Positions 6,346-54,781 of a stretch of 64,000 bases of DNA are shown here, one piece after another. The notes beneath the pieces were generated by a model. The model worked only from the letters and a program-made list of their open reading frames with translations, was not told where the DNA came from and did not search any database. The DNA is taken from positions 122,120-186,119 of IMG/VR virus record IMGVR_UViG_3300029286_002355; one strand, given 5' to 3'. This DNA comes from a virus. Both the position numbers and the translations under genes were made by a program. Every line of letters begins with the position of its first letter. Positions within the stretch are counted from its first letter, which is position 1.

Positions 6346-7080
6346 CTAGGCTTCGTTACTAAAACAATAGAAGGCTATGCCGGTACGTTCGTTGTCTCCC
6401 ATTTCGGTTACTATAAAATCATCAAAGGCATATAGATCTGCGCCTCTAGTGGCCGTAAATCCTCTTGCAATAGCCAACGCTTTACAGGCCTTACCGATAC
6501 AGGCATTCCCGAAACATCTAACCAAACATTCCTTGTTTTCTTCAACAGCATGTGTAATAGCTCCAGCAAGTTTCCTTACTCGAATTCGTCTTTCTGCGGG
6601 ATCGATATCTTTAGGGTCTGCCTTAACCATAAGAACGCTTTTTACTTTCTCTAAATCAATTTTTTTAGTTTTTTCTGAAGCAAAGACGCAAAAGACAATG
6701 CCAGTTAATGTGCTATCACCAATTTGTGCCGTTAAAAACGCTGGTGCATAAGCTAGTTGCAGATTGTTCGTGTCCTCAACATAAGACTTAGCAATAGCAA
6801 GTGCTTTGACCGACTTCCCAATAGCTGCGTTTCCAAATGCCCTAACGTTAATTTCTCCATTGGTTCTTAAAGAATGGCTGATGGCTCCTGCTAATTTTTT
6901 TACATTTCTTTTTCTATCTTCTGGCGTAATATCGGCAGGATCGGCAGCAACTTTAAGTGCAGGTTTTGAATCATCGGTTAATGGTTTTGGGACAGATGCT
7001 TGTGGTATTGCTTCAACTAACTCCTTGTCTTCGTGCATTTCCTCAAGATCGTTTTTATCTATTACTATATTTTCAGTCAT
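6346..7080 (-). CDS. Tandem SpoVS/Alba-like nucleic-acid-binding protein
   Basis: 244 aa. Two copies of a SpoVS-like domain: first LAGAISHSLRTNGEINVRAF, then GNAAIGKSVKALAIAKSYV; second LAGAITHAVEENKECLVRCF, then GNACIGKACKALAIARGF; each ends with a GD(S/N)xxTGI strand. Bacterial SpoVS is a single small domain of Alba-type fold, so this is a duplication. About 45 acidic residues precede the first domain. Alba-type proteins bind DNA or RNA; the phage role is not known. It has its own promoter motif and terminator, so it is a single-gene transcript, and probably abundant (inference). Confidence 0.8.
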   Translation of the reverse strand: MTENIVIDKNDLEEMHEDKELVEAIPQASVPKPLTDDSKPALKVAADPADITPEDRKRNVKKLAGAISHSLRTNGEINVRAFGNAAIGKSVKALAIAKSYVEDTNNLQLAYAPAFLTAQIGDSTLTGIVFCVFASEKTKKIDLEKVKSVLMVKADPKDIDPAERRIRVRKLAGAITHAVEENKECLVRCFGNACIGKACKALAIARGFTATRGADLYAFDDFIVTEMGDNERTGIAFYCFSNEA

Positions 7081-7094
7081 CTCATCCTCCTATT

Positions 7095-7102
7095 TGTATA
7101 AT
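7095..7102 (+). promoter_or_regulatory. Plus-strand TGTATAAT motif facing a terminator
   Basis: TTTGTATAATTC on the plus strand inside the leader of the SpoVS-type gene. No plus-strand gene follows; the bidirectional terminator at 7172-7206 is about 80 bases downstream. It could start a short antisense RNA or be chance. Confidence 0.3.
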
Positions 7103-7141
7103 TCAATTTTTGTGAGCAACATTCATTTGGTGCTCTTATAC

Positions 7142-7149
7142 ATTATACA
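7142..7149 (-). promoter_or_regulatory. YTGTATAAT promoter-like motif
   Basis: CTTGTATAATG on the minus strand about 60 bases before the SpoVS-type gene, just downstream of the sigma-factor terminator. Confidence 0.65.
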
Positions 7150-7171
7150 AGAAGCGGAGTGATTTTAACCA

Positions 7172-7206
7172 CAAAAAAAGGAGACCAAGAGTGGTCTCCT
7201 TTTTTT
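7172..7206 (-). terminator. Bidirectional Rho-independent terminator
   Basis: A 10-bp stem AAGGAGACCA/TGGTCTCCTT with a 4-base loop and runs of seven T on either strand. It closes the sigma-factor transcript. Confidence 0.85.
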
Positions 7207-8824: not shown

Positions 8825-9617
8825 AGAGAATCTCTTTGGATGTTTCTTCTCGAACAACCTTTTGGCAAAGCTTGTAGATTTCGGATTGAGTTAAGGTCTT
8901 CTCAAGTTTAAGGAAAGCATCCAATCCTTCTTTGCTGACAAATACATCGGGATCTATCTTAAGAGGCAAATGGATGACGGATATATTTTCACAAAAGTCA
9001 TATTTTTTTAAAATGGTAATGGCTATTTGTTTACCTTTGTCTCCAGATTCGTTGTCATCGGTATCAAAACATAAACAAATGTTATTGCAGTATCTAGCAA
9101 TCAAACTAATTTTACGTAAGGCAAAAGCGGTTCCCATAATCCCAACAACATTTTTTAGACCATATTGAAACAAAACTAAAGCGTCCATATACCCTTCTAC
9201 GACATAGACCTTATTTTTTTCAAAGATGGTCTTGCGAGCTTTATCTAAAAGAAAAAGATGATTTCCTTTTTTGAAAGGCGATGGTAAATTCCACCAAGAA
9301 TTTCCCGGCTTTGACGTAGGACTTCTAGTAGCAAAAGCAACAACCTCCCCAAATTCAGAAAAGATAGGGACTATAATTTTTCCATGAATATAAGGAGAGA
9401 TATCCCATCTTTTTTCTGTATCCCCCGAACCATAAAAACGGACAGGATCGGGAATGTTAAAACCTGTCTTACAATAACCTATTATATGAGAATTCCAAGA
9501 TTTTTCAAGTAGTTTTCTCTCATTAATAAGATATTCTCTGGCAGTTTTAATTTCCCGATCTGCACCCGATAAGAGCGAAACATTACACTCTTTTATAAAC
9601 TCTGACAGATCAGACAT
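8814..9617 (-). CDS. DnaG-type primase, TOPRIM core without zinc domain
   Basis: 267 aa. The DnaG RNA-polymerase core is visible: HGKIIVPIFSEFGEVVAFATR, then the TOPRIM motifs VYVVEGYMDALVLFQ with the catalytic Glu and CFDTDDNESGDKG with the DxD. The N-terminal CHC2 zinc-binding domain of bacterial DnaG is absent and so is the C-terminal helicase-binding domain, so template recognition must come from elsewhere. It overlaps the Cas4-like gene and follows recA closely. Confidence 0.85.
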   Translation of the reverse strand: MSDLSEFIKECNVSLLSGADREIKTAREYLINERKLLEKSWNSHIIGYCKTGFNIPDPVRFYGSGDTEKRWDISPYIHGKIIVPIFSEFGEVVAFATRSPTSKPGNSWWNLPSPFKKGNHLFLLDKARKTIFEKNKVYVVEGYMDALVLFQYGLKNVVGIMGTAFALRKISLIARYCNNICLCFDTDDNESGDKGKQIAITILKKYDFCENISVIHLPLKIDPDVFVSKEGLDAFLKLEKTLTQSEIYKLCQKVVREETSKEILYAQ

Positions 9618-22357: not shown

Positions 22358-22728
22358 TGGTGGAAGCGAGGAGAGTTGAACTCCTGTCACGTATAATTTC
22401 AACCAAGTTTCTTTCACATGTTTAGTCTACTGTTTCTGAGACTGATTGCTCGGAGCCAAAATAGACTCACTCCGGACGGTTCCTTATACCTCAAGCATTT
22501 CGTCTTCCCGAAATTCCACAGAGCTAAGCTACTCTGTCCGCACTCTTGTGTCTTATGCTACTCAGGTTTACCAGAATTATCTTAACCCTTTCACAGGCCA
22601 CTATTAAGCAGCCATTGCCATTCTAGGAACAGCATTTAATTTTTTGTAATGGATATTTTAAGAGGCCAACCATCATCCTCTACATGCAACTGGATTTACG
22701 TTACCACGCTCGATACCGTAACGCTCCC
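22358..22728 (-). ncRNA. ssrA: tmRNA (transfer-messenger RNA)
   Basis: 371 nt. The ends pair as an acceptor stem (5' GGGAGCG with 3' CGCTTCC, then ACCA encoded); the T arm AGGAG-TTCAACT-CTCCT precedes it, and the 5' part has the D-like GGTATCGA. The conserved GTTGGCCTCTTAAAA run leads into the tag frame, which I read from the GCT at 22633: A-VPRMAMAA then TAA TAG. The tag ends AMAA, fitting the protease signal of other tags. tmRNA rescues stalled ribosomes with host SmpB and alanine charging. The resume codon is inferred, the ends and the tag stop are clear. Confidence 0.93.
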
Positions 22729-25444: not shown

Positions 25445-26677
25445 CTACCCAGCGACTAAAGATCGCTGGGTTTGCATCTTCTGAAGACACAATTGGCTAG
25501 TTGATGGTAGCCTGCCCATAAAGTTCAGTCCACCATCAATAGGTATACCAAACGATACAGGGCGTTTTACTCCTTTGGCCTCTTTTATTTTGGAGTATTT
25601 GTTGGCAATATTTATTGATGCATTCCAATCTGCATCAAAAACCTTGCCATCTGAGGCATAATACCTGCATCCCCTTCTTTCTCCTTTCTCAATTCCTCTG
25701 TAGTCTAATTGAGACGTTAAATAGGGGTTAACCGTTACTACTCTTTTTCCATTGAGTAGTGCCTTGTAGGTCAATATTCTTTGTAGTTCAAAGAATGACA
25801 TTTGACTTAATCTATTTTTACTCGATTTGCCTTTCTTGTAGTTTTTCTTTCCTAGGTTATTTTTCTTTAAAGAGGATAAGTCTTCAAGAACTATAGTATT
25901 CATTTTAGTCTTTAGTATCTCGTTGACTAACTGGTAACTAGTGTTTTTGTTCTTGTTTTTCTCTTTTCGTTTTAGTTTCTTGAGCTTAGTTTTTGCAGAG
26001 TGAGATCTATTTATTTTAAGATTTGAGTTTAATTGTCTTTTTAGATATCTTAATTGTCTTTTTTGTTTTAGAAATTGCTTGTCAGAAATAGCAATACCTT
26101 CAGAAGTAGTTATGAGTCTTCTTTCTCCAAGATCTACTCCAAGATAACCGTTTTCAATATGTACTGGTTCTGGAACTGAAAAGGATACTGCCAGCCAGAA
26201 CACGCTATCCTTAAAGAAAATCAGTGGATCGCAAAGAGAATAGGTTTTTAAGAGTTTAGAGAATTTAGGATATGGTTTAAAATCGCATACAATTCTCTTT
26301 CCGGTGGTTGTTAATTTAATTTGATTGTTATCAAGAAAGGTATAGATTCGCTTGTCTAACCTAAGAGATAGGTTAATTTGCTTGGCAGATTCCGTTAATT
26401 TAGATCTTTGTTTATTAGATTGTATAGTTTTGTAGGTGGCATAAACAGAGTCTTTGGCTCGTATTATAACCTGAGAAGGACAATCGGGGAACAACTTTCT
26501 GCACTGATGATAGTTCTTGTCGTGAAGCAGTTTCTTATCTAATTTCTTGGCTTTAAAGGCATATTCTGACATATAATTCCATATTTTCTGATGCTCAAGA
26601 AGAGTATTATAGAGCAGATCAAACTCTTCTTTACTCTTTGGAACAAGCTTAATATTATATGTTATAACTGAGTTCAT
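25445..26677 (-). CDS. tnpB: TnpB RNA-guided nuclease, zinc ribbon degenerate
   Basis: 410 aa. RuvC acids are in YLGVDLGERRLITT, IVLEDLSSLKK and DADWNASINIA. The zinc ribbon normally reading TSQ-CxxCG...CxxCG is here TSQLDYRGIEKGERRGCRYY, with the CxxC pairs lost. TnpB proteins use a guide RNA from the element's right end to cut DNA lacking the element, favouring its retention. The 3' end of the gene runs into the right-end hairpin, so the guide RNA should overlap it and take its guide from the SET gene remnant. Confidence 0.88.
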   Translation of the reverse strand: MNSVITYNIKLVPKSKEEFDLLYNTLLEHQKIWNYMSEYAFKAKKLDKKLLHDKNYHQCRKLFPDCPSQVIIRAKDSVYATYKTIQSNKQRSKLTESAKQINLSLRLDKRIYTFLDNNQIKLTTTGKRIVCDFKPYPKFSKLLKTYSLCDPLIFFKDSVFWLAVSFSVPEPVHIENGYLGVDLGERRLITTSEGIAISDKQFLKQKRQLRYLKRQLNSNLKINRSHSAKTKLKKLKRKEKNKNKNTSYQLVNEILKTKMNTIVLEDLSSLKKNNLGKKNYKKGKSSKNRLSQMSFFELQRILTYKALLNGKRVVTVNPYLTSQLDYRGIEKGERRGCRYYASDGKVFDADWNASINIANKYSKIKEAKGVKRPVSFGIPIDGGLNFMGRLPSTSQLCLQKMQTQRSLVAG

Positions 26678-26804: not shown

Positions 26805-27155
26805 TTACCTCCCCCACACTAAAGATGTCGGGGTTTCTGCTCGCATTAAATGAAAACGAAGTTCTTCTCCATATTGTATATTCCGTTTAGCATACGCCCT
26901 AATTGTTCCATATTTTTTAAATCTCTTTAAATATATATTTGGTTTTTCGGAATGATTCATAAAATTAATCAGCCCCATAGCAAGACAATCATGTTTATTT
27001 GACCAAGCCATACTATAATCTTTTAACTCTGATTTTTCTATTTTAGAATACGTATATGGAATCACTGGATTTTCTACAATTAGGCTTCCCCGACTTATAA
27101 ATTTATCTGTAAATACACCTTTCCCACAACCTTTAACGTCTTTTAAGTATATCAT
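26805..27155 (-). pseudogene. SET-domain protein, 3' end cut by TnpB element
   Basis: Start at the ATG after AAGGAG. KGCGKGVFTDKFISRGSLIV, then GLINFMNHSEKPNIYLKR, then IRAYAKRNIQYGEELRF are the SET motifs, including the NH(S/C) of the SAM/lysine site. After RF the frame reads into element sequence and stops; the native end is at 25392-25442. SET enzymes methylate lysines; a phage version could modify phage or host proteins. The truncated product lacks the last motif with its usual Tyr, so it is probably inactive. Confidence 0.8.
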
Positions 27156-27163
27156 TTTTCTCC

Positions 27164-27541
27164 TTAACAGTTCTTTTCTTCCCACATAGGATTCTTCTCA
27201 AAATCCAACTCTTTTCTAGATTTACCCGCATTGCCCGTAAATGGAGGATGTTTTTCCTCAAATTTACATACTTCGCCCAATGACATATCTTTAAATTCTT
27301 TTTCCTTGCCTTCCATTTCCCTCAACGCTTCTTCTGCCCATTCCCATCCGTCTTTCACTAAGCCATCTCTTCCTCTAACTTCTAAACTGGTATATTTAGG
27401 ATCTAGTTTTGACCTATTAACAATCTTTTTAAATTTGTTGCAAAACCCCCTATATTGCCAAAAATCCATATTGCCATATATCTTAAGAGCATGGATGGCA
27501 ATTTCAAGTTTTTGTTTATCGGTGAGTTTCTTTACTTTCAT
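27164..27541 (-). CDS. Unknown protein, 125 aa
   Basis: GGAGG before the ATG. Helical N-terminus (EIAIHALKIYGNMDFW), Pro- and Lys-rich tail. Family not recognised. Confidence 0.7.
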   Translation of the reverse strand: MKVKKLTDKQKLEIAIHALKIYGNMDFWQYRGFCNKFKKIVNRSKLDPKYTSLEVRGRDGLVKDGWEWAEEALREMEGKEKEFKDMSLGEVCKFEEKHPPFTGNAGKSRKELDFEKNPMWEEKNC

Positions 27542-28433: not shown

Positions 28434-29048
28434 TTATAATTTTGTTGGTTTAAGTGGATAAAATGCCTTGGGAAGAGAATCATTATATAGAAAGTCAATG
28501 TACTTAGCAGGAACATCATCAACCAGCCATACACCATTATTTGAAAGAAAGAAATCATATCCTTCTTTTATCATAGCTTCTGTATCAATACGAAGAACAT
28601 GGGGACTTCCATGCCTAGAACCAACCTTTACCGCCGTATCATGATCCTTAGAGAGATGAACATGATTACGTTGCCTCTTATCTAAGCCATTAATTCTAAT
28701 AGATGGAATGAATTGCTTCGCCGTACCATGAAAGAGAAACTTGGGCGGTATATTAGAATCTAACTCTAAATCTACATCTACCGAATGACCTTGACAAGCC
28801 CTAATCTGCCACCCATCTTCGCTATACTCAAAACGTTTCTTATCGTTATCAGCAACAACTTCATCAAGAATAGCCTTGGTAATCGGTTCAAACCCTTCCG
28901 CTTTTTGAAAAGTATTACTTCGGTCAATTAGTTCTTTCACATCAACCCAACCATTCTTGTCCAAGGCAATCCCAATCGTTTCGGGTTTATGCCTTAGAAC
29001 CATGGCTAGAAACTTACTAACCCCAACCAATTCTTTTTTCAACGCCAT
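28434..29048 (-). CDS. kptA: RNA 2'-phosphotransferase (Tpt1/KptA)
   Basis: 204 aa, the full family length. An N-terminal winged helix with SKFLAMVLRHKPETIGI and WVDVKELI; the catalytic half has FLFHGTAKQF, RNHVHLSKD and SPHVLRIDTEAM. It removes a 2'-phosphate from RNA using NAD+, giving ADP-ribose 1'',2''-cyclic phosphate. In tRNA repair this 2'-phosphate marks some ligation junctions. A polynucleotide kinase-phosphatase gene is directly upstream, so they probably work together. AAAGGAG before the ATG. Confidence 0.93.
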   Translation of the reverse strand: MALKKELVGVSKFLAMVLRHKPETIGIALDKNGWVDVKELIDRSNTFQKAEGFEPITKAILDEVVADNDKKRFEYSEDGWQIRACQGHSVDVDLELDSNIPPKFLFHGTAKQFIPSIRINGLDKRQRNHVHLSKDHDTAVKVGSRHGSPHVLRIDTEAMIKEGYDFFLSNNGVWLVDDVPAKYIDFLYNDSLPKAFYPLKPTKL

Positions 29049-29111
29049 ATTAACTCCTTTTCAACATTGTAAGACAACTTAATTATATTTCAACCATTTT
29101 CTTTGGAAATT

Positions 29112-30086
29112 TTATCGTTCGAAAAACTCGTTAGCATTTTGATAAATGAATCCGCATCGATTACTAAAGGTTTTATCGCTTGTAGAATCACCAACATAAA
29201 AGCATTTATTAGGATTTAATTTATATTTTTCAACTAAATAGACACCTAATCCGCTTAGTGGCTTACGGCAATAACATCTAATGGGAAAAGAATGATGTGG
29301 ACAATATACATAAGCAATATCAAATCCGATAAGCATATTAGTTTGATTGAAGCAAGCCTTAGCCTGAGTCTCGCTAAGATCCCCCTTCTCAATACCACTC
29401 TGATTGGATACGCCTAAAAGAAAATAACCCTCATAAACATACTTTTGGAGAATTTTCTTTGTATTGGGTAATATTTCAATATCTTCTGGTTTTAAGGGAT
29501 ACTTGCCACCACTCTTTGTTTTTCTAAGGGTTCCATCATAGTCTAAAATAACAGCACGATTATCATAACCCGAAGGAAGAGGCTTCCTAACAAAATCAAT
29601 TTCTATTATGTCAGAAAATCCTTCATCCATGGTAGGCTCTTGGAAGGCTTTCTTGTAGGCGTAAAGGGCTATAGAAGGAATATTACAGGGATCTTTATCT
29701 AACTTGCTACCATTAGGCCCTAAAATATCATTTAATGGGAATAGAGGCTTTGCGGGATCTAAGACATAGCGTTTCAAAATTCGATAAGCGGCATTATATT
29801 GTGCATCTTCTATTTTAGTTGTTACCCAAATGCATAATACTTTAAATCCATACTTTTTTGCTATATCAATTACACACTTCCTAGATTCTTTGGTTCCATA
29901 GGTATTATCAAGAACAAATTTTTCCTTGCCGCTATTTATTTGACTTATTAGTTTTTCGTTGAGCTTTTCAAGATTGCAGCCCATCTCGTCCCGATTCAGC
30001 CTGACATAGCCTTTATCGGTGTATGATTTTACGTGGGATGATTTACCTGCACCCTGTATCCCACATATGATTACAATTTCTTTCAT
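29112..30086 (-). CDS. Polynucleotide 5'-kinase/3'-phosphatase (Pnkp-like)
   Basis: 324 aa in the T4 order. Kinase: ICGIQGAGKSSHVKSY P-loop at the N-terminus, VLDNTYGTKESRK. Phosphatase (HAD) from ~180: VILDYDGTLRKTKSGGKYP with the DxDGT nucleophile, GVSNQSGIEKGD, and YVGDSTSDKTFSNRCG. The enzyme heals broken RNA ends (5'-OH and 2',3'-cyclic phosphate) for a ligase. No RNA ligase is visible in the window. ATGA overlap with the preceding gene. Confidence 0.92.
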   Translation of the reverse strand: MKEIVIICGIQGAGKSSHVKSYTDKGYVRLNRDEMGCNLEKLNEKLISQINSGKEKFVLDNTYGTKESRKCVIDIAKKYGFKVLCIWVTTKIEDAQYNAAYRILKRYVLDPAKPLFPLNDILGPNGSKLDKDPCNIPSIALYAYKKAFQEPTMDEGFSDIIEIDFVRKPLPSGYDNRAVILDYDGTLRKTKSGGKYPLKPEDIEILPNTKKILQKYVYEGYFLLGVSNQSGIEKGDLSETQAKACFNQTNMLIGFDIAYVYCPHHSFPIRCYCRKPLSGLGVYLVEKYKLNPNKCFYVGDSTSDKTFSNRCGFIYQNANEFFER

Positions 30087-31142: not shown

Positions 31143-31367
31143 TTATTCTGTTAGTCTCAAAAGATGGGGACGAATACCGTAGCAGCTTTGCATATCGGGT
31201 TCTCCTTCGGGATGGACAATAGCAAAAATTTCTTTGGTTTCGTAACGGACATTAACCCATTTCAAAACTACTCTTTTGTTATTAGTAGAATCAATATAGA
31301 TTTGTCCCGGATGCAACTGAACCAGATCATCAACTTCAACTTCTGTTTTTTGTATAGTTCTTTTCAT
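31143..31367 (-). CDS. Unknown protein directly after RNase P RNA
   Basis: 74 aa, ATG after GAGGTAAC, 16 bases past the 3' end of the RNase P RNA. Beta-rich (VEVDDLVQLHPGQIYID). A KOW/SH3-like barrel is possible but not shown. Confidence 0.65.
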   Translation of the reverse strand: MKRTIQKTEVEVDDLVQLHPGQIYIDSTNNKRVVLKWVNVRYETKEIFAIVHPEGEPDMQSCYGIRPHLLRLTE

Positions 31368-31383
31368 AGTTACCTCAATAAGT

Positions 31384-31616
31384 GAAAGCGAATACCTCAT
31401 AACCCGAATTCTGTTTCTCTTCTATCATTTGACTCACTTTCGTGGCAGGTTCTTATCTCCTGCTGCACCAACCCGACCATCAACGTATAGCTAACCTACT
31501 ACGGTCTATTTGGCTTGCTCCTTCATCGGTTATAACAGGTTTCCCCTCCCGGCTTAAGCTAAGGAGTTCGGAGTTTCCTCTGCTTTATGGCAGCGATAGA
31601 TCGAATATCCGTTTTC
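31384..31616 (-). ncRNA. rnpB: RNase P RNA, catalytic domain with reduced specificity domain
   Basis: About 233 nt. CR-I reads GAGGAAACTCCGAACTCC and CR-V ACAGAATTCGGGTTA. P4 pairs AAC-(U)-CCGAA with TTCGGGTT, keeping the bulged U, and both strands differ from the common form in a compensating way. CR-IV is GGAGCAAGCCAAATAG. P1 (GAAAACGGATA/TATTCGCTTTC), P2 (CTATC/GATAG), P3 (CTGC/GCAG), P5 (CTCC/GGAG), P15 (GACC/GGTC, loop with AGGTTAG for CCA) and P18 (GCAGG/CCTGC) can be drawn. Between P5 strands there are only about 43 nt instead of roughly 150, so P10-P14 are gone. Confidence 0.93.
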
Positions 31617-48947: not shown

Positions 48948-49024
48948 TGGAGCGACGGACCGGGCTTGAACCGGCGAACCTGAATCTTGGCAAGATCCCG
49001 CTCTACCAACTGAGCTACCGCCGC
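48948..49024 (-). tRNA. tRNA-Gly (anticodon GCC)
   Basis: 77 nt with encoded CCA. Acceptor GCGGCGG/CCGTCGC, D arm GCTC/GAGC, anticodon loop TTGCCAA on stem GGATC/GATTC, T arm with TTCAAGC loop, discriminator U. Confidence 0.95.
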
Positions 49025-53783: not shown

Positions 53784-53858
53784 TGGAGCGAGAAAGGAGA
53801 ATTGAACTCCCGTAATTTTGCTTGGGAAGCAAACACCTAACCACTAGGTTATTCTCGC
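53784..53858 (-). tRNA. tRNA-Gly (anticodon CCC)
   Basis: 75 nt with encoded CCA. Acceptor GCGAGAA/TTCTCGC, D arm ACCT/AGGT, anticodon loop TTCCCAA on stem TTTGC/GCAAA, T loop TTCAATT, discriminator U. Confidence 0.95.
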
Positions 53859-54538: not shown

Positions 54539-54610
54539 TGGACCCATAGGGAATTGAACCCTAATTCGAAGCTCGCAAAGCTCCTGTAATAGCCATTATA
54601 CTATGAGCCC
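54539..54610 (-). tRNA. tRNA-Ala (anticodon UGC), no encoded CCA
   Basis: 72 nt. Acceptor GGGCTCA/TGGGTCC has the G3-U70 pair that marks alanine, anticodon loop TTTGCGA on stem GGAGC/GCTTC, T loop TTCAATT, discriminator A. The next bases are AT and then the following tRNA, so CCA must be added. Confidence 0.92.
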
Positions 54611-54705: not shown

Positions 54706-54781
54706 TGGTGGAAGCGGGGATGCTTGAAATCCCACGAACCTGATTGCAGGTCAGGTGCTCTGCCTCTTAAGCTACGCCCCC
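54706..54781 (-). tRNA. tRNA-Ala (anticodon UGC), second copy with C33
   Basis: 76 nt with encoded CCA. Acceptor GGGGGCG/CGCTTCC with G3-U70, D arm GCTT/GAGC, anticodon loop CCTGCAA on CCTGA/TCAGG, T loop TTCAAGC, discriminator A. Position 33 is C, not the nearly universal U. Its 3' acceptor strand is identical to that of the tmRNA (CGCTTCCACCA). Confidence 0.88.

Follow-up and report, generated by a model that had tools for sequence, protein, structure and literature searches.

The window, the whole 64,000-nucleotide stretch of DNA analyzed here, belongs to a 186-kb virus record that is a phage, with genes for a DnaE-like polymerase, a UvsX-like recombinase, an SbcC-like protein, and an NAD-dependent ligase. 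An RNA on the minus strand occupies the gap between two coding genes of the same strand. Upstream, the open frame stops at 31615, ∼3 nt before the RNA; the downstream frame, with a possible ATG start near 31367 and a GAGG ahead of it, lies ∼16 nt past it. The window also contains a tmRNA and five tRNA genes, all on the strand of the RNA, and the 3' CCA is encoded in five of the six. Scans for promoters and terminators yielded no more matches than expected by chance.

22358-22728, minus strand: tmRNA with encoded 3' CCA, likely substrate
31384-31612, minus strand: phage RNase P RNA, 229 nt, class A catalytic domain without CR-II/CR-III (RF00010; held-out phage model)
45336-45409, minus strand: tRNA-Gly(UCC), likely substrate
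48948-49024, minus strand: tRNA-Gly(GCC), likely substrate
53784-53858, minus strand: tRNA-Gly(CCC), likely substrate
54539-54610, minus strand: tRNA-Ala(UGC), no encoded CCA
54706-54781, minus strand: tRNA-Ala(UGC), likely substrate

The tRNA-Gly(GCC) gene has 62% G+C in a phage of 35% G+C and was perhaps acquired recently. Elsewhere in the window, a KptA/Tpt1 RNA 2'-phosphotransferase adjoins a Pnkp-like kinase-phosphatase, forming an RNA-repair pair (28434-30086) 1 to 3 kb from the RNA; an open frame resembles a TnpB/IS605-type protein by its motifs (25445-26677), and a further phage gene has a SET domain (26805-27185). The RNA-repair neighborhood was dropped as a shared feature, with KptA present in 0 of 22 other RNA-carrying records.

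Identity and architecture of the RNA

The preliminary description, made from the sequence alone, had placed an RNase P RNA lacking most of the specificity (S) domain at 31384-31616. The Infernal search agrees: in an Rfam cmscan, the bacterial class A model RF00010 (RNaseP_bact_a) gives a significant match at 31384-31612 on the minus strand, covering model positions 1-367 with 50.1 bits. With a stretch of 801 bases as the search space, the E value is 2.3e-14; with the full virus record of 186,119 bases, in which this is the single RF00010 match, it is 1.3e-15. The locus thus stands, with its extent corrected to run from 31612 to 31384. The alignment spans the model end to end and skips the S-domain positions. 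Because the S domain is absent, the score stays below the RF00010 gathering cut-off of 100 bits, and a default Rfam scan is therefore silent on this RNA; other phage RNAs that lack the S domain are overlooked by standard annotation for the same reason. Against all Rfam families, cmscan kept RF00010 as the best of its clan, ahead of the archaeal model, and gave no separate type T match. We consider it near certain that 31384-31612 is an RNase P RNA of the bacterial class A type. It is classed as a variant rather than an ordinary class A RNA because CR-II and CR-III (P9-P14) are absent. Judged by its sequence, the phage RNA is of class A descent and retains the catalytic domain after loss of the specificity domain.

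As the preliminary description had it, CR-I, CR-IV, and CR-V are all present and in order. A search for the bare CR-I pattern GAGGAAANTCCGNNC finds a single copy in the window and none in 100 shuffles. Helices P1, P2, P3, P5, and P15 and a hairpin at the position of P18 can be drawn, as can a short P7; for P1 and P3 of the window RNA, the support is hand-drawn pairing only. P4 pairs AAC-U-CCGAA with UUCGG-GUU, so that AAC/GUU replaces AAG/CUU while the bulged U is kept. The subfamily referred to below has seven members: the window RNA and loci L022, L023, L025, L026, L186, and L198.

31604-31611, minus strand: P1 5' strand CGGAUAUU; 8 of 8 standard pairs with 31389-31396
31595-31599, minus strand: P2 5' strand CUAUC; 5 of 5 pairs with GAUAG; P2 covaries in the subfamily
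31580-31593, minus strand: P3 hairpin CUGC-(6)-GCAG; drawn pairing
31567-31580, minus strand: CR-I GAGGAAACUCCGAA, including P4 5' strand AAC-U-CCGAA with U bulged; RF00010, pattern
31563-31566, minus strand: P5 5' strand CUCC; P5 100% paired in the subfamily
31527-31559, minus strand: mini-domain with GCUUAAG, P7 (CGG/CCG), GAG, hairpin AGG-GGAAA-CCU, and GUUAUAA; 7-member subfamily alignment
31518-31521, minus strand: P5 3' strand GGAG; P5 100% paired in the subfamily
31506-31518, minus strand: CR-IV (J5/15) GCAAGCCAAAUAG; RF00010, invariant GCAA
31467-31514, minus strand: P15, GCC/GGU plus GACC/GGUC; RF00010, pairing, phage model
31494-31496, minus strand: L15 GGU, predicted to pair with the tRNA 3' CCA; GGU invariant in the subfamily
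31435-31463, minus strand: P18-position hairpin GCAGG/CCUGC, then CAC-GAAA-GUG hairpin; subfamily alignment
31422-31426, minus strand: P2 3' strand GAUAG, pairs with CUAUC; covariation
31400-31414, minus strand: CR-V ACAGAAUUCGGGUUA, including P4 3' strand UUCGGGUU; RF00010, P4 pairing across phage RNAs
31389-31396, minus strand: P1 3' strand GGUAUUCG, pairs with the P1 5' strand

In the alignment of its subfamily, the P18-position and CAC-GAAA-GUG hairpins belong to the window member only. The interleaving of P2 and P4 is present in the window RNA and is backed by covariation. The thermodynamic (MFE) fold of the whole RNA is uninformative (z, -0.13), as expected because the RNA is pseudoknotted.

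The window RNA contains no CR-II or CR-III motif and none of the helices P9-P14. The preliminary description had given the P5 loop as ∼43 nt, with P10-P14 missing; the helices are indeed missing, and the measured length between CUCC and GGAG is 41 nt. Its picture of an empty loop does not hold, since the insert carries P7, a small P8-like hairpin, and a conserved GCUUAAG...GAG motif. Across the subfamily, the insert follows one plan: P5, GCUUAAG, P7, GAG, hairpin, a GUUUGCA-like strand, P7, GAG, and P5. The length of the hairpin varies widely between members. P7 covaries in the other six, with A-U, C-G, and U-A at one position, and is shortest in the window RNA, at 3 bp. Other groups without the S domain, such as that of A3Wally, L011, L012, and L024, have a different insert, with a shared AAGCC...GCAAUGG-like stretch. 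Among 41 distinct phage RNAs, the CR-II/CR-III core is absent in 22 and kept in 19; the phages thus display a series from near full length to minimal.

Relatives in other phages and covariation

Pattern scans of IMG/VR, followed by covariance-model checks, found RNase P RNA in more than 40 records, representing the 41 distinct RNAs. The scans used only the spacing of CR-I, CR-IV, and CR-V, and candidates were then scored with the Rfam model; the collections scanned may omit the closest relatives. In one scan, three of six candidates were true RF00010 matches; in another, 13 of 14 loci matched, and the fourteenth (L023) falls under the RF00010 threshold yet aligns closely with L025; in a further scan, all 26 loci matched. 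A pattern demanding one exact CR-IV spacing was too strict and had no matches. Loci L010, L013, L014, and L016 were rejected as chance pattern matches with no Rfam match. The shortest RNA, L198 (L198:1408-1620; G042:C1:30517-30714), looks complete at only 198 nt and scores 63.8 bits (E, 6e-21).

With the window RNA as query, blastn returned nothing from 50,697 phage records, and a search with the polymerase for close relatives of the phage was abandoned, as its best match had ∼37% identity. Prevotella phage Lak-C1, considered as carrying a homologue of L025, was discarded: the match covers just 51 nt, and Lak-C1 has no RF00010 match. Ten named phages, mostly large, lack an RF00010 match, so the trait is not universal and not generally needed. 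The RNA is present in four isolated Microbacterium phages: A3Wally, Big4, Zooman, and one further phage. A3Wally, reached through L012, carries an RNA (72 bits; E, 1.3e-20) that fills the space between two tRNA genes. In A3Wally, Big4, and Zooman, the RNA is unannotated. L012 itself, a 114.8-kb viral contig, groups a GOLLD RNA (2438-2853), a tmRNA (6827-7195), and a minimal RNase P RNA (8917-9151), together with 18 tRNAs, within ∼10 kb.

Across the 41 phage RNAs, 162 of 164 cells hold a standard pair at the four P4 positions left free by the search patterns (N68 and three inner pairs); in the shuffle control, the mean is 110 and the maximum 123 of 164. Counts for the remaining P4 positions, which the patterns held fixed, and for P5, whose partners were picked by best complement, are not independent. 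In the window subfamily, analyzed over the six members other than the window RNA, both sides vary in 17 of 28 pairs and 94.6% of cells are paired; none of 500 shuffles is as good, and slid structures reach 27 to 44%. P4 is 100% paired in the subfamily, and P1 differs in sequence in each member and still pairs, with one mismatch in L022. A covariance model built from these six members, with the window RNA held out, gives that RNA the top score in a search of 184 kb of the phage genome, at 67.3 bits versus 22.7 for the runner-up (E values are rough). Covarying homologues, which the preliminary description had proposed to look for, occur in other phages, with covariation in P2, P4, P5, P7, and P15. 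The RNase P assignment thus withstands the refuting outcome named in that description, which was a lack of both a significant RNase P model match and covariation in the homologues. Covariation of this strength indicates selection for structure.

The compensating P4 swap from AAG/CUU to AAC/GUU, also noted in that description, proved genuine and recurrent among the phage RNAs. C-G replaces the usual G-C at N68 in 11 of the 41, and AAC/GUU is found in L018, L022, L023, L025, L026, L169, L171, L177, L179, and L183 besides the window RNA. L021, a close relative of L018 and L183, has AAG/CUU (that is, G-C), which makes the change true covariation rather than one lineage's fixed oddity. Among ∼110 short cellular RNAs in the matches listed, two show a clean N68 swap. 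Three Altarchaeum RNAs (L071, L119, and L122) have U-A in place of G68-C in P4, a compensated change rare in cells. By eye, compensated differences also separate the four Microbacterium phages in P4 (AAAGUCC/GGCUUA versus AAGUUCC/GGGCUA) and in P5 (CACCC/GGGUG versus CUCGG/CCGAG). Big4 and Zooman (L030 and L031, ∼1505-1726), with P4 AAGUUCC/GGGCUA, differ from A3Wally by two adjacent compensated changes beside the bulged U.

tRNA linkage, proposed function, and alternatives

The nearest tRNA gene lies within ∼100 nt in 29 of the 41 phage RNAs and within 1 kb in 35; wherever a tRNA is present, the nearest one is on the same strand as the RNase P RNA. Many of the RNAs directly abut a tRNA; processing of the tRNA ends would then free the RNA as well. 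The exceptions without a close tRNA are L186, L176, and the window RNA, which is at least 13.7 kb from its own tRNAs and ∼8.7 kb from the tmRNA. We found no RnpA (PF00825) in this phage or in 44 other records searched; the control matched in 10 bacteria. Host RnpA would thus be needed. The tRNA-array setting, the mostly CCA-encoding tRNAs, and the absence of a phage RnpA in these records fit tRNA and tmRNA processing with the host protein.

Our favored interpretation (probability, roughly 75%), in which activity is inferred, is that the RNA is probably a catalytically active ribozyme of the phage that relies on RnpA from the host and matures the tRNAs and tmRNA of the phage. The RNA would be transcribed together with the flanking phage genes, and its catalytic domain would bind host RnpA. 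The L15 GGU could then dock the encoded CCA of phage pre-tRNAs and pre-tmRNA, whose 5' leaders the RNA would cut. The mini-domain (P7-P8, GCUUAAG/GAG) may assume part of the lost T-arm recognition. The likely benefit would be extra or phage-tuned tRNA maturation during infection. Against this interpretation stand the nonadjacent tRNAs and tmRNA in the window and the window P7 of only 3 bp. In E. coli, the isolated catalytic domain can cut a model hairpin substrate whether or not C5 is present, and P18 is hardly needed in that form; the rate is ∼1% of that of the full RNA, a ∼100-fold reduction (PMC5839562). That such a domain cleaves at all speaks for the interpretation, and its weaker activity speaks against it.

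Three rival readings are less likely. The bacterial catalytic domain carries the RnpA contacts, and its retention in RNAs of which 22 of 41 lack the substrate-recognition core would suit a decoy or retuner. Such an RNA would bind host RnpA, perhaps with pre-tRNA, without acting mainly as a catalyst; by drawing the protein off the host RNA, it would weaken host tRNA processing or shift it to phage substrates. However, a decoy requires neither the bulged U, P4, the GCAA, CR-V, and the GGU, all of which are retained, nor a site inside tRNA arrays, and the P4 changes are compensated; we regard this possibility as unlikely. An active RNase P RNA might instead act mainly on substrates other than tRNA, such as phage polycistronic mRNAs, small RNAs, or its own array transcript: the tRNA T arm is read less well without an S domain, and the window copy sits between coding genes rather than beside a tRNA. 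Its homologues, though, adjoin tRNAs, the L15 GGU matches the encoded CCA, and the window holds tRNA and tmRNA genes, making this a quite improbable account. Conservation of the active-site elements and location in tRNA arrays favor catalysis on tRNA over both of these alternatives.

Phages take up host genes, and some longer homologues (e.g., L166 and L174) keep the CR-II/CR-III core, as might be expected if the RNA were a piece of host rnpB, either taken up by a phage and now neutral or in decay, or present through host sequence contaminating viral contigs. Some of these longer homologues could indeed be contamination, as the check for surrounding phage genes covered the window and the Microbacterium phages rather than each other contig. 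For the family, such an origin is very improbable given the strong covariation, which implies selection for structure, the position of the window copy ∼3 nt and ∼16 nt from phage genes in a 186-kb phage record, and the four isolated Microbacterium phages with the RNA. In addition, the short cellular matches listed from GTDB are archaeal or CPR RNAs with an S core or fault-like MAG sequences; among them, MAG matches with N runs or a missing S domain look like assembly faults. CPR bacteria, including Dojkabacteria (L060, L076, and L092), have very short RNase P RNAs, with 150 to 190 nt from CR-I to CR-V, and among the matches listed from GTDB these mostly keep CR-II/CR-III.

Relation to known RNAs and significance

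The window RNA shares CR-I, CR-IV, CR-V, P1-P5, P15, J5/15, the L15 GGU, and the bulged-U P4 with the class A model and E. coli M1 RNA. Unlike M1 RNA, it is phage borne, has 229 nt versus ∼377, and lacks CR-II/CR-III and P9-P14; it departs from the class A model in P4 (AAC/GUU for AAG/CUU) and in scoring 50 bits against the cut-off of 100. A natural RNase P RNA without a recognizable specificity domain, the type T RNA of Pyrobaculum, was reportedly described by Lai et al. in 2010. The phage RNA resembles type T in being natural and without that domain, but type T is archaeal and works with archaeal proteins, whereas the phage RNA is of the bacterial class A type with a P7-P8 mini-domain. The engineered E. 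coli CP RPR likewise is a catalytic domain without the S domain (PMC5839562); it is a laboratory construct, whereas the phage RNAs are natural and selected.

Additional RNase P RNA genes in Mycobacterium austroafricanum and M. sp. YC-RL4 have an aberrant specificity domain and are regarded as products of horizontal transfer (PMC9569102). In contrast to the phage RNAs, these copies are reported in bacterial genomes, and the accessible part of that paper draws no link to phage-encoded RNase P RNA; they may be an integrated form of the phage family. Theta ribozymes of gut phages are also phage encoded, lie beside phage tRNAs, and have a proposed role in tRNA maturation (PMC10879173); unlike the phage RNase P RNA, they are an HDV-like self-cleaving motif on the 3' side, unrelated to RNase P. 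A full-text literature search, with most subscription papers outside its scope, found no earlier report of a phage-encoded RNase P RNA; the main text of a huge-phage survey does not mention RNase P, and the accessible part of a 2024 review treats phage tRNAs only as substrates.

Few ribozymes are nearly universal, and RNase P RNA is among them; the maturation of phage tRNAs is credited to the host enzyme. Our findings suggest that some phages bring the RNase P catalytic core with them and are not wholly reliant on that of the host; three of the carriers have been isolated and named and infect a Microbacterium strain used in the laboratory. We judge it about an even proposition that phages have evolved a natural RNase P RNA class of their own, in which a conserved mini-domain stands in for the specificity domain and a hybrid holoenzyme with host RnpA processes phage tRNA arrays, often including the ends of its own transcript where the RNA abuts tRNA genes. 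The phage RNAs, often without the substrate-recognition domain, are natural experiments on the purpose of the S domain and form a graded series from near full length down to 198 nt. They also offer a testable idea of how phages manage their tRNA supply.
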